From: Methanococcoides orientis
GTDB taxonomy: Archaea > Halobacteriota > Methanosarcinia > Methanosarcinales > Methanosarcinaceae
Assembly: GCF_021184045.1 (NCBI RefSeq)
Contig: NZ_CP073710.1
Coordinates: 2,242,685-2,306,684 of the forward strand
Direction: 5' to 3'
DNA length: 64,000 nucleotides
Each line of letters starts with the position of its first letter. Positions within the stretch are counted from its first letter, which is position 1. This document shows positions 27,816 to 36,134 of the stretch, one piece after another. The translations under genes and the position numbers were made by a program. The notes under the pieces are model-generated. The model saw only the letters and a program-made list of their open reading frames with translations, did no database searches and was not told where the DNA came from.

Positions 27816-28139
27816 TCAACTTATATTCTCGAAACACTCTCTGAGCAACCCTGCTGCTTTACTATAATCAAGGTCAGTTATCTCAATTGTTTTTTTTGTG
27901 CTTCTTGCACCTGACCTTATACTGATGCTTGAAGTGTTTATCTTAAAGAAGTCTGCGAGGGTCTCTATAAGCTCATTGTTGGCCTTGCCTTTCTGGGCAG
28001 CGGCTGTAAGTTTTATTTCAATGCGCTCCCGCCATTGGTTGTATCCGCCGGGAAAACAGGACTTTTTTGCGCCAGGTGTCACTTCCAGATCGATTGTTAT
28101 GCTATCCCCTTTATCCTTTAGTGAATTTTCAAAAGACAT
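27816..28139 (-). CDS. DUF167/YggU family protein
   Basis: 107 residues. The family pattern is clear: ITIDLEVTPGAKKSCF, then IEIKLTAAAQKGKANNELIETLADFF, then IRSGARSTKKTIEI. Function is unknown in all domains. The ATG follows AAAGGTCAC. A structured leader or separate RNA with its own promoter lies directly upstream. Confidence 0.88.
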   Translation of the reverse strand: MSFENSLKDKGDSITIDLEVTPGAKKSCFPGGYNQWRERIEIKLTAAAQKGKANNELIETLADFFKINTSSISIRSGARSTKKTIEITDLDYSKAAGLLRECFENIS

Positions 28140-28189: not shown

Positions 28190-28371
28190 GTCGATAATGC
28201 TGTAGCCCGGCCCACTAACTCCGAAAGATCATCCTATTGGGATCCCCGCTGTCCCTTCCGGTTTCCCTCGTGTCAGGCGTATGTTGCATTATCGTATGTG
28301 CCGCATTGAGGTTGTCTGTACATTCACAGAAAGGCTCTGCCATATTCTCGTGCAAGGACCTTACAATGCGC
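28190..28371 (-). ncRNA. Candidate structured RNA (about 180 nt) or long structured leader of DUF167
   Basis: No protein frame explains this stretch, which is more GC-rich than flanking spacers. Read 5' to 3' on the minus strand it folds into two domains. The first is closed by CGCAUUG/CAAUGCG (28364-28370 with 28302-28308), followed by AGGU/ACCU and a UCUGU/ACAGA hairpin. The second is closed by CGAUAAUGC/GCAUUAUCG (28286-28294 with 28192-28200), then GCCUG/CGGGC, CAC/GUG and CCGGAAG/CUUUCGG. A TATA box lies 20-30 bp upstream of the predicted 5' end. I looked for RNase P, SRP and box C/D features and did not find a match. Confidence 0.5.
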
Positions 28372-28389
28372 CATGGAGTACTATATGGT

Positions 28390-28403
28390 AGTGTAATATA
28401 AAG
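28390..28403 (-). promoter_or_regulatory. TATA box of candidate RNA
   Basis: On the minus strand CTTTATATTACACT. The identical 14-mer stands before lysC at 36121-36134, where it is correctly placed for a promoter. It predicts transcription from about 28371. Confidence 0.55.
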
Positions 28404-28432: not shown

Positions 28433-28597
28433 ATGGATCCTTTTCCGGGGGTCAGTTTTGCATTGATTGATCCTATTGATCTGTCAGTAGGATCTATGCG
28501 CCTGAATTATGGTCTTGAACTAGTTATCAGAAATGTCAAAGAAAAAATGCCGAATTCGAAAGAGTTGGTGGCAATTTTAAGGAATGATCTCTTCTAA
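28433..28597 (+). CDS. Possible small protein (54 aa)
   Basis: Begins MDPFPGVSFALIDPIDLSVG and ends KELVAILRNDLF. There is no strong ribosome site (GGTGG about 14 nt upstream), and an internal ATG after AGGATC is an alternative start. An inverted repeat GATCCTA/TAGGATC lies inside. No family recognised; it is the only coding candidate in the gap before gdhA. Confidence 0.35.
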   Translation: MDPFPGVSFALIDPIDLSVGSMRLNYGLELVIRNVKEKMPNSKELVAILRNDLF

Positions 28598-28837: not shown

Positions 28838-30088
28838 ATGGCAGAACAGAACCCATTTGAAAATGCAAGAAAGCAGTTACAGAAATGCGCAGACATCATG
28901 GAGCTCGATGAAGGTATCCACGAGATCCTCAGAAACCCAATGAGGGAAATGCACGTATCCCTTCCTATCCGCATGGACGATGGTTCCATCAAGGTATTCC
29001 AGGGATTCAGGGTACAGTACAACGATGCAAAGGGTCCAACCAAAGGTGGTATTCGCTTCCACCCAGAAGAGACCGTTGACACAGTCAAGGCACTTGCAGC
29101 ATGGATGACCTGGAAATGTGCAGTAATGGACATCCCTCTCGGTGGAGGTAAGGGTGGAGTTATCTGCAACCCTAAGGAAATGTCCGCTGGTGAACTCGAG
29201 CGCCTTTCAAGAAAGTTCATTTCAAGCATCTCAATGATCGTAGGTCCTGACAAGGATGTACCTGCACCTGATGTCTACACCAACCCACAGATGATGGCAT
29301 GGATGATGGACGAGTTCTCCAAGTTCGCCGGTAAGAACCAGGCTGGTGTCATCACCGGTAAGCCACTCAGCATTGGTGGTTCACTCGGTCGTGGCGACGC
29401 AACAGCTCGTGGTGGTCTCTACGCAGTCCGTGAAGCAGCAAAAGAGATCGGTCTCGACCTCAAGGACGCAACAGTAGCAATCCAGGGATATGGTAACGCA
29501 GGTTACTTCGCTGGTACTCTCTGTGAAGAGCTCTTCGGATGCAAGGTCGTTGCTGTCAGTGACAGCAGGGGCGGTGTCGTGAACATGGATGGTCTCAGCG
29601 CACAGGCAGCACAGGACCACAAGATGGAAACCGGTTCAGTTGTCGGCCTCGCAGGAACAGAACCAATCTCCAACGAAGACCTCCTTGAGCTTGATGTCGA
29701 TGTACTTATTCCAGCAGCTCTTGAGCACGTCATCACACACGAGAACGCAGACAATATCAAGGCAAAGATCATCGCAGAACTTGCAAACGGTCCAACAACA
29801 CCTGAAGCAGATGAGATCCTCTTCAAGAAAGGTATACACATGATCCCTGACTTCCTCTGTAACGGTGGTGGAGTTACTGTGTCCTACTTCGAAATGGTCC
29901 AGAACTTCTACATGTACCGCTGGAGCGAAGAGCGTGTCCACAACCGTCTCGATGCTAAGATGACAAACGCATACCACGCTGTCCTCGAGGCATCCAAGGA
30001 ATACAACATCGAGATGAGAACCGCTGCATACGTTGTCGCTATCAACCGTGTTGTTGAAGCAATGTCAGACCGTGGATGGTTGTACTAA
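28838..30088 (+). CDS. gdhA: Glutamate dehydrogenase (Glu/Leu/Phe/Val family)
   Basis: 416 residues. The substrate Lys region [11 protein letters not shown] is near residue 100, [15 protein letters not shown] follows, and the nucleotide fold starts [16 protein letters not shown] near residue 215. It interconverts 2-oxoglutarate plus ammonium and glutamate with NAD(P)H. Very codon-biased sequence suggests high expression. Ribosome site GCGAGGTAAATCAC before the ATG. Next to the F420H2:NADP oxidoreductase and glutamine synthetase genes. Confidence 0.95.
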
Positions 30089-31249: not shown

Positions 31250-31293
31250 TAAAGCAATTAGGCACAAATCAATCCATTGATGTGGGCGATTCA

Positions 31294-32622
31294 ATGAATA
31301 TTAATACCAAAGAAGATGTACTCAAGGCCATTGAGGCAAACAATGTTAAGTTTATCAGGTTGCAGTTCACGGACATCCAGGGTGTCGTGAAAGACGTTGA
31401 GATCCCGGTGACACAGGTAGAAAAAGCTCTTGGTTCGGGAATCTCCTTTGACGGCTCTTCTGTTGAAGGCTTTGTCCGTATCAATGAATCGGATATGGTC
31501 CTGAAACCCGATGTCTCCTCATTCGCAATACTTCCATGGAACCAGGACAAGGGCGTTGTTGCAAGGATGGTGTGTGATGTCTATCTGCCTGATGGAACTC
31601 CCTTTGCAGGAGATCCCAGATATGTCCTCAAGAAAGTTATGAAAGAAGCTGAGGATATGGGCTTTACACTTAATGTAGGTCCTGAGCTTGAATTCTTCCT
31701 CTTCGAGAAGGAGAATGGCAAAGCAACCACAATACCTCATGATTTCGGCAGGTACTTCGAGTTTGCACCTGCTGACCTTGCAGAGGATGTACGCCGTGAT
31801 ATCGTACTGACGCTCCTGGATCTTGGATTTGATATCGAGGCATCTCACCACGAGGTCGCTTTCGGTCAGCATGAGATCGATTTCAAGTATGGCGGTGCAC
31901 TTTCCACTGCTGATGATGTAATGACCTTCAAGTATGTTACCCGTACTATTGCAAAGCTCAATGGATTACATGCAACGTTCATGCCAAAGCCTATCTTTGG
32001 TGAGAACGGTTCCGGTATGCACGTGAACATTTCCCTCTCAAAGAATGGGGAAAATGCGTTCTACGATCCTGAGGGTGACATGCAGATCAGCGACGAAGCA
32101 CGCTACTTCATTGGCGGACTTCTCAAACACGTCAAGGCTATTACAGCTATCTGCAATCCACTTGTCAACTCATACAAACGTCTCGTACCAGGATATGAGG
32201 CTCCAGTATACATTGCATGGTCCGGTGCCAACAGAAGCTCACTTATCCGTATCCCTGCTGCAAGAGGCAAGGGTACACGTGTGGAGCTTAGAAGCCCTGA
32301 TCCATCCTGTAATCCATACCTTACTTTCGCTGCTATCCTTGCAGCAGGTCTGGACGGTATCAGGAACAAGATCGATCCTGGGGAGAACAGGGAAGAGAAT
32401 ATCTTCGAGCTTTCTGAAAAGGGCTTAAGTGACCTTGGTATTGAGACACTTCCGCCAACCCTGAAGGATTCTGCAAATTATCTTGCTGAGAACGATCTGC
32501 TTCGTGACGCTCTTGGTGAGCACGTCCACGAGAACGTCCTAAGGCTTGCAAGGGCTGACTGGGATGCATATCGTATTCAGGTACACGACTGGGAGGTCGA
32601 AAGATATCTTAACACTATATGA
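31294..32622 (+). CDS. glnA: Glutamine synthetase, type I
   Basis: 442 residues from ATG 31294 (GTG 31282 is possible). Beta-grasp N-terminus with FIRLQFTDIQGVVKDVEIP and FDGSSVEGF, metal and ATP residues in GPELEFFLF, GSGMHVNIS, and NRSSLIRIPAARGKGTRVE-type motifs. No adenylylation-site motif is evident, fitting archaeal GSI-alpha. It makes glutamine from glutamate and ammonium. The two repeats upstream suggest nitrogen control. Confidence 0.95.
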   Translation: MNINTKEDVLKAIEANNVKFIRLQFTDIQGVVKDVEIPVTQVEKALGSGISFDGSSVEGFVRINESDMVLKPDVSSFAILPWNQDKGVVARMVCDVYLPDGTPFAGDPRYVLKKVMKEAEDMGFTLNVGPELEFFLFEKENGKATTIPHDFGRYFEFAPADLAEDVRRDIVLTLLDLGFDIEASHHEVAFGQHEIDFKYGGALSTADDVMTFKYVTRTIAKLNGLHATFMPKPIFGENGSGMHVNISLSKNGENAFYDPEGDMQISDEARYFIGGLLKHVKAITAICNPLVNSYKRLVPGYEAPVYIAWSGANRSSLIRIPAARGKGTRVELRSPDPSCNPYLTFAAILAAGLDGIRNKIDPGENREENIFELSEKGLSDLGIETLPPTLKDSANYLAENDLLRDALGEHVHENVLRLARADWDAYRIQVHDWEVERYLNTI

Positions 32623-34653: not shown

Positions 34654-36066
34654 TTATTGTCCGGACGTTTTCTTTGATCCGAGGTCGAATTCCTGATGCA
34701 GTACTCTGACTGCCTCCTCTGCATCCTTTTCACTGATGGCGAAGGAGATGTTGTGCTGGGATGAACCCTGGCTAATCATTATTACGTTGATCTTGCCCTT
34801 TCCAAGGGCTCCGAATACTTTTCCTGCGACGCCTGGTATGCCATCCATTCCGGCACCTACCACAGCGACCACACAGACATCTTTGTCATAGGCCACTTCT
34901 CCGACAACATCTTTGTTGAACTCGGATTTCAATGCTTTTACAGCACTCTTGAGGTGGGCATCATCAACAACAAGGGACATGTTGGCTTCGGATGAGCTCT
35001 GGCTGATCATAATTATGTTGACGCCAGCCTTTGCCAGTGCGGAAAATATCCTTGCTGCTGTACCGATAGCTCCTACCATCCCGGCTCCTGATATGTTTAC
35101 GGCAGCCACATTCCTGATGAGTGTCACTGCTTTTACCACATCTTCCTTTCGGGTCTGATCTGCAACGACAAGTGTGCCTGGATATTCTATGTCAAAGGTA
35201 TTCTTAACACGAACCGGTATGCCATGTTTTATTGCAGGCTCGATAGCACGTGGATGAAGTACCTTGGCGCCGAAATATGACATCTCCATTGCTTCGATGT
35301 AAGATATCTGGGGGATGGATGATGCTTCGGGAACGATCTTCGGGTCAGTTGTCATAATGCCGTGTACTTCTTTCCAGAGCCAGATCTCATCTGCCTGGAT
35401 GGCAGCACCTACAATGGATGCCGTAAAGTCAGAACCACCCCGTCCAAGGGTTGTGATGATGCCTTTCTTATCTTCTGCAATGAAACCGGTTATCACGGGG
35501 ATGGAGGTTTCCACACGGGTCGATATATTGTTCTCCACTTGCTCATAGCTTTTTTCAAGTGGCTGGGCATTTCCGTAATCACTTGTTGTGACAATGCCTG
35601 CTTCTCCACCGGTAAACGGCATTGAGTCCGTTCCAAGTGAGCGTATTGCTCCACTGATGATCGGCACTGCCAGGCGTTCTCCGTATGATGAGATGTAATC
35701 AATGGAACGTGGTGTCAACTCACCGAGATAACATATTCCAATAAGTGCTTTTTCAAGTTCATCTATACGGCTGTCGATAGTTTCGATAACATCATCAGCG
35801 ATCCTCTCATCATCAATTGCATAGCCAATAGCATCATAGTGTTTTTTGGCAAGGTCTGTCATGAACTCTTTTATCTGGGAGACCTTTCCTTTTTGTGATG
35901 CTTCAGCTGCGTTGGTGAGCAGTCCGTCAGTAACGCCTCCGAGAGCAGAAGTTATGGCAACTACCTGATCTCCGGCATCTCTGTAACTGATCAAAAGCTG
36001 TGCAACATGACGTATCTTCTTCCCATCAGCAATGGATGTACCGCCAAATTTCATTACATATCTCAT
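34654..36066 (-). CDS. lysC: Aspartate kinase
   Basis: 470 residues from ATG 36066 (MRYVMKFGGTS). The N-terminal kinase domain has KFGGTSIADG, TLGRGGSDFTA and the HPRAIEPAI region; two ACT domains at the C-terminus (VNISGAGMVGAIGTAARIFS and VVAVVGAGMDGIPGVAGKVF) predict feedback control by an amino acid. It phosphorylates aspartate for threonine, methionine and lysine synthesis. Confidence 0.94.
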   Translation of the reverse strand: MRYVMKFGGTSIADGKKIRHVAQLLISYRDAGDQVVAITSALGGVTDGLLTNAAEASQKGKVSQIKEFMTDLAKKHYDAIGYAIDDERIADDVIETIDSRIDELEKALIGICYLGELTPRSIDYISSYGERLAVPIISGAIRSLGTDSMPFTGGEAGIVTTSDYGNAQPLEKSYEQVENNISTRVETSIPVITGFIAEDKKGIITTLGRGGSDFTASIVGAAIQADEIWLWKEVHGIMTTDPKIVPEASSIPQISYIEAMEMSYFGAKVLHPRAIEPAIKHGIPVRVKNTFDIEYPGTLVVADQTRKEDVVKAVTLIRNVAAVNISGAGMVGAIGTAARIFSALAKAGVNIIMISQSSSEANMSLVVDDAHLKSAVKALKSEFNKDVVGEVAYDKDVCVVAVVGAGMDGIPGVAGKVFGALGKGKINVIMISQGSSQHNISFAISEKDAEEAVRVLHQEFDLGSKKTSGQ

Positions 36067-36120
36067 AGTCTGATCACGTTCTGTATTAGGCTTGATTTGG
36101 AATGTGGCTATAAACACGGC

Positions 36121-36134
36121 AGTGTAATATAAAG
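36121..36134 (-). promoter_or_regulatory. TATA box of lysC operon
   Basis: On the minus strand CTTTATATTACACT, about 60 bp before the ATG, giving a leader near 35 nt. Identical to the element at 28390-28403. Confidence 0.6.

Follow-up and report, generated by a model that had tools for sequence, protein, structure and literature searches.

What is the structured RNA that lies between a DUF167 gene (27816-28139, minus strand) and the gdhA gene (28838-30088, plus strand) of Methanococcoides orientis, and what has it to do with the protein gene that follows it? The window discussed here is the whole 64,000-nt stretch of this genome that was analysed, and a sequence-only reading of it had proposed a minus-strand RNA with a promoter of its own, fitting none of the RNase P, SRP or box C/D features that could be tested and serving either as an independent RNA or as a long cis-regulatory leader of the DUF167 gene. 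We can say with high confidence that the RNA is conserved, that it has gone unannotated in this lineage and that it is of an ordinary kind. The new part is its neighbourhood: the long-standing partnership between this RNA and DUF167 is the unusual aspect of the locus.

Boundaries, fold and distribution

An alignment of relatives shows a conserved block that runs on the minus strand from the first closing stem to just past the second (28372 to 28191), and homology search, conservation and covariation delimit there a core of two hairpins and 182 nt (28191-28372; this and all RNA features below are on the minus strand). The TATA box CTTTATATTA (28394-28403) starts about 30 nt 5' of the predicted RNA 5' end, and because a TTTATAT stands 28-32 nt 5' of the RNA start in most of the Methanosarcinaceae loci examined, the RNA is predicted to begin at about 28371, which agrees with the start proposed earlier. 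The likeness of this element to a lysC promoter was also correctly seen, since the 10-mer has one other exact copy in the window (36125-36134, minus strand), just 5' of an aspartate-kinase-like (lysC-like) ORF at 34654-36117. Between the RNA and gdhA there is, in addition, a 54-codon ORF (28433-28597, plus strand) with no Pfam match, and its relatives, at 72% and 51% identity, occur only in two other Methanococcoides genomes.

Both of the perfect closing stems noticed in the sequence, one of 7 bp (CGCAUUG/CAAUGCG, 28370-28364 with 28308-28302) and one of 9 bp (CGAUAAUGC/GCAUUAUCG, approximately 28294-28286 with 28200-28192), are found in the minimum-free-energy and the centroid folds. The lone window sequence folds with a z of -0.32, and its stability is equalled or exceeded by 75 of 200 shuffles, so that stability by itself would not have revealed the RNA. 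Among 32 aligned sequences, compensatory changes occur in 20 of the 40 pairs (0 of 500 shuffles), and 93% of pairs are standard in the structure, as against 30-39% when the partner is slid by 1-3 columns; in a set of 49 diverse sequences, whose alignment was fitted to the covariance model and is therefore biased towards it, compensatory (double) changes are seen in 36 of the 40 pairs (again 0 of 500 shuffles). The structured minus-strand RNA of the sequence-only reading, together with the compensatory changes in its stems that it asked for among relatives, is thereby borne out. The outer stem round hairpin 2, whose 5' arm (28286-28294) pairs with 28192-28200, is kept at its length of 9 bp only in near relatives.

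Using blastn, homologs were found in 47 of 60 relatives, nearly always as a single copy, with an identity of 100% within the genus that falls to about 67% in the order's other families. A covariance search had been suggested within Methanosarcinales, and the model recovers the RNA well beyond that order, across Halobacteriota (198 of 392 genomes, nearly always one per genome). In one genome of family f7 (G060) both the RNA and DUF167 are matched twice, perhaps because the assembly is mixed or duplicated.

The anatomy of a box H/ACA guide RNA

Because its anatomy, its homology and its targets converge, we consider it nearly certain that this RNA, with its two hairpins, belongs to the box H/ACA guide RNAs of archaea and is the Halobacteriota ortholog of stems II and III of Pab40/HgcG/Pf7 and of the Haloferax H/ACA RNA (also known as sR-h45), and that it would guide modification of 23S U2626, U1966 and probably U1968. 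RNase P RNA (RF00373) and SRP RNA (RF01857) were rejected, as neither matches here and both are found elsewhere in the genome; this much of the earlier exclusion stands, while box H/ACA, which had not been considered, is the identity that we assign. Each hairpin consists of an internal-loop pocket between two paired stems, and the genome encodes Cbf5, Nop10 and Gar1.

Hairpin 1 (28302-28370), the homolog of Pf7/Pab40 stem II (PMC2584109), has covarying pairs and uses the 7-bp closing stem as its lower stem. Its pocket is made of a 5' guide GGUC (28357-28360; GGUC in 42 of 49 sequences), which would pair with GACC of the 23S rRNA, and a 3' guide AACCU (28309-28313; AACCC in 38 and AACCU in 9 of the 49), which would pair with the GGGUU before U2626. 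Above it lies a k-turn and predicted L7Ae site (28324-28349), with GA (28349-28348) on the 5' strand and UGA (28326-28324, present in 49 of 49) on the 3' strand, and the order read from the alignment, a C stem, a three-base bulge, GA and then the other stem, is that of a canonical k-turn. The sequence of the upper stem is conserved beyond the needs of a plain stem, a point that counts against the guide RNA reading. The ANA box of this hairpin is ACA (28297-28299) in the window, and across the 49 sequences it reads ACA in 41, AUA in 6 and AAA in 2.

Hairpin 2 (28205-28278), the homolog of Pf7/Pab40 stem III, has a lower stem GCCUGACAC/GUGGGCCGGGC and an upper stem CCGGAAG/CUUUCGG, likewise with covariation. 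The 5' guide of its pocket, GAGGGAAA (28262-28269), would pair with ACCCUC of 23S helix 69, with mismatches at the apex, and the 3' guide GUUA (28216-28219), present in 49 of 49 sequences, with the UAAC before U1966. Its k-turn (28229-28253) comprises GAC (28253-28251) and GGAUGA (28234-28229), the UGA being found in 48 and the GA in all 49 of the sequences, and a k-turn geometry with GA opposite UGA in most sequences may thus be attributed to both hairpins. Here too the ANA box is ACA in the window (28201-28203) and ACA, AUA or AAA in 41, 7 and 1 of the 49 sequences; an ANA triplet stands at both hairpins in 49 of 49, and its middle base alone varies. The usual distance from 3' guide to ANA box in archaeal H/ACA RNAs is 14-16 nt. 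Counted on alignment A2 from the first base of the 3' guide, the ANA box follows at 14 nt in hairpin 1 and at 16 nt in hairpin 2, a spacing that has been quoted as 14-15 nt (PMC4652768).

Predicted targets in the 23S rRNA

Target sites were scored first by strict contiguous pairing and second by a mismatch-tolerant score, and with the latter the best of the 945 uridines in the organism's own 16S and 23S rRNAs is U2626 for hairpin 1 (8.5 vs 7.0 for the next), in the context GGGUU-U-A-GACC and equivalent to E. coli U2586, and U1966 for hairpin 2 (9.0 vs 8.0), in the context GUAAC-U-A-UGACCCUC and equivalent to E. coli U1915. Pocket complementarity round an unpaired UN is therefore clear for hairpin 1 and narrower for hairpin 2. 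The match of hairpin 1 to the U2626 site amounts to 9 bp, and since an equally good site occurs in 12 of 200 shuffled rRNA sets, the weight of this target comes from its agreement with a published site. The strict scan did not return U1966 with the organism's own hairpin 2 guide, because the Methanococcoides 5' guide has two apex mismatches to helix 69; the GAGGGU form of this guide in Methanosarcina gives a wider margin (10 vs 7). All 18 genomes in which helix 69 was matched have the same sequence there, which leaves no guide-target covariation to be used and explains why GUUA and GGG are invariant in the pocket. By analogy with Haloferax, U1968 (E. coli U1917) would be pseudouridylated besides U1966. 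Alignment A2 contains a further pairing, 15-17/66-68 (GUC/GAC), whose GUC is also the one that would bind the target; the two uses compete, and the pairing is kept here as a state of the free RNA.

Relation to known H/ACA RNAs

Haloarchaea possess a two-hairpin H/ACA RNA, with HP1 homologous to stem II of Pf7 and HP2 to stem III (PMC2584109), and the targets assigned to it are 2621 for HP1 and 1956/1958 for HP2 in Haloarcula marismortui numbering, that is, E. coli 2586, 1915 and 1917 (PMC2584109, PMC4652768). The window RNA resembles this haloarchaeal RNA (HP1/HP2, Hvo1/Hvo2) in having two hairpins in the same order and with the same targets; however, the haloarchaeal hairpins are separated by a long spacer, whereas those of the window RNA are adjacent, with an extra outer stem round hairpin 2 and DUF167 downstream. 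For Pab40, the site reported is Psi2016, which corresponds to E. coli 1915 (PMC2584109), and in vitro it guides P. abyssi U2588, a different site in the same region (PMC6138745). The main text of a Methanolobus transcriptome study names SRP, RNase P and C/D RNAs and no H/ACA RNA (PMC5378194).

Compared with Pab40/HgcG (RF00064)/Pf7/Afu-4, the hairpins of the window RNA correspond to stems II and III, but stem I is missing and the TATA box stands in its place, leaving two hairpins as opposed to the three of HgcG. In many distant families the three-hairpin Rfam model also spans the stretch 5' of hairpin 1, which has an ANA-like triplet at its end (as in GGGGCAACA, GGGGGCAACA and GGGGCACA); this stretch is missing in Methanosarcinaceae, and in these distant loci (L136-L148) its sequence suggests that it is probably stem I of Pf7/HgcG, a third H/ACA hairpin. 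One of them, L148, matches Rfam HgcG over the same stretch at 98.4 bits against a gathering threshold of 77 bits, and weaker coextensive matches, all below the threshold, occur at L136, L144 (2e-6), L084, L034 and L152, among others. The window RNA itself has no match to the HgcG model at E<=5 and only chance matches to Rfam at relaxed thresholds, its copy being too divergent to score. Throughout a phylum, then, this branch of the HgcG family escapes Rfam, and in Methanosarcinales it would provide a guide for pseudouridines of helix 69 and of the peptidyl-transferase centre.

A long-standing neighbour, DUF167

The DUF167 gene (PF02594, YggU/UPF0235; Pfam 2.5e-23) lies on the same strand as the RNA, 61 nt after its last ANA box. 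Nearly all Methanosarcinaceae likewise have DUF167 3' of the RNA in the same orientation, and so do families f3, f7, f14, f21, f25, f26, f27 and f30. When some 1 kb of sequence surrounding and preceding DUF167 was searched in 20 genomes, almost none of which had yielded an RNA in the first pass, the RNA turned up 5' of DUF167 in 14, adding f8, f16 and f19, with no RNA found upstream of DUF167 in the genomes of f9 and f20. The same-strand order of RNA and then DUF167 is seen in at least 12 families of Halobacteriota (linked loci L136, L139, L142, L143, L148, L152, L153 and L162-L181). The linkage is not universal: in f2, f5 and f6 the RNA and DUF167 are both present and stand apart, and in the haloarchaeal families f18, f23 and f24 the RNA is present and no DUF167 was found among the matches listed. 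In Methanomicrobiales-like families the DUF167 start codon comes only 12-25 nt past the ANA box, too short a distance to hold an ordinary promoter, and in L148 this gap holds an SD-like AAAGGTGATC before a GTG, a good ribosome site. This arrangement suggests that DUF167 is probably carried on the transcript of the guide RNA, while the 61-nt gap in the window could possibly accommodate a separate DUF167 promoter.

The RNA's family, fold, boxes, pockets, available targets, machinery genes and linkage can all be read from sequence, and from these we infer how it might be expressed, assembled and used. Transcription would start at the site predicted above, from the conserved TATA box, and L7Ae would be recruited by the k-turn of each hairpin and Cbf5-Nop10-Gar1 by its lower stem and ANA box; the complex on hairpin 1 would then position U2626, in the peptidyl-transferase centre, and that on hairpin 2 would position U1966 and probably U1968, in helix 69, for conversion to pseudouridine. 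The transcript would probably run on into DUF167, and the guide RNA would have to be released by processing from this joint RNA-mRNA transcript.

What DUF167 does there can be approached through its family, which spans archaea and bacteria, E. coli included, and is also found in eukaryotes. The downstream gene belongs to the same family as MTH637 (1JRM), PF1765 (9UNT) and E. coli YggU (1N91), and the predicted model of its product aligns to PF1765 with a Z of 17.8 and an rmsd of 1.2 over 97 residues. High Z scores were obtained with this family only, those of ribosomal proteins (Z about 4-6) not being evidence; the titles of the three entries, the P. furiosus PF1765 crystal structures of 2025 included, give no function, and among the papers searched there was none that links DUF167 with H/ACA RNA. 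The adjacency hints at what DUF167 may be linked to, and as a tentative proposal, one that we would not call probable, the archaeal DUF167/UPF0235 protein may work with the H/ACA pseudouridylation system or in the maturation of large-subunit rRNA, its expression being tied to the guide RNA through one dicistronic, processed transcript. The deep pairing gives a concrete and testable context to an uncharacterised family that is also present in E. coli.

The same adjacency might be read as control, with the H/ACA RNA regulating DUF167 through the binding of Cbf5/L7Ae or the release of the guide RNA, which would be an addition to the guide function and no alternative to it. The depth of the linkage, the very short distances from ANA box to start codon and the ribosome site of L148 speak for such control, but the linkage has been lost in several families and a shared promoter by itself would account for the arrangement, so that we regard it as rather unlikely. 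Far less credible is that the RNA is solely a cis-regulatory leader of DUF167, whether riboswitch or protein-binding, with no role in trans. The idea of a long leader was partly right, in that much of the phylum has DUF167 next in line on that strand, often at a distance too short to hold a separate promoter; however, there is no sign of riboswitch-type regulation, the RNA persists in the families where DUF167 is elsewhere or was not found, and ANA boxes, k-turns and rRNA-complementary pockets would be needless in a leader. A regulatory sRNA of nitrogen genes was suggested by the divergent gdhA 467 nt upstream and a glutamine-synthetase-like ORF (glnA, 31282-32622) nearby, but gdhA is a neighbour in no group other than Methanococcoides and a single close relative (L012/L082), the RNA and DUF167 stay together where it is absent and the pockets match rRNA, and we rejected this idea, gdhA being local to the genus, as having almost no chance of being right. 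Lastly, a short protein-coding gene can be dismissed as practically impossible, for although a 46-codon ORF from a TTG overlaps the region (28355-28215, minus strand), the core length takes all three residues modulo 3, the frame has different stops in relatives, no Pfam match exists and the region covaries as RNA.

The guide RNA also has other neighbours elsewhere. In two genomes of the haloarchaeal family f23 (L154 and L151) it lies about 1-3.5 kb from an rRNA operon, in the opposite orientation, the rRNA neighbour being the 5S/23S end in L154 and a helix 69 match near L151.
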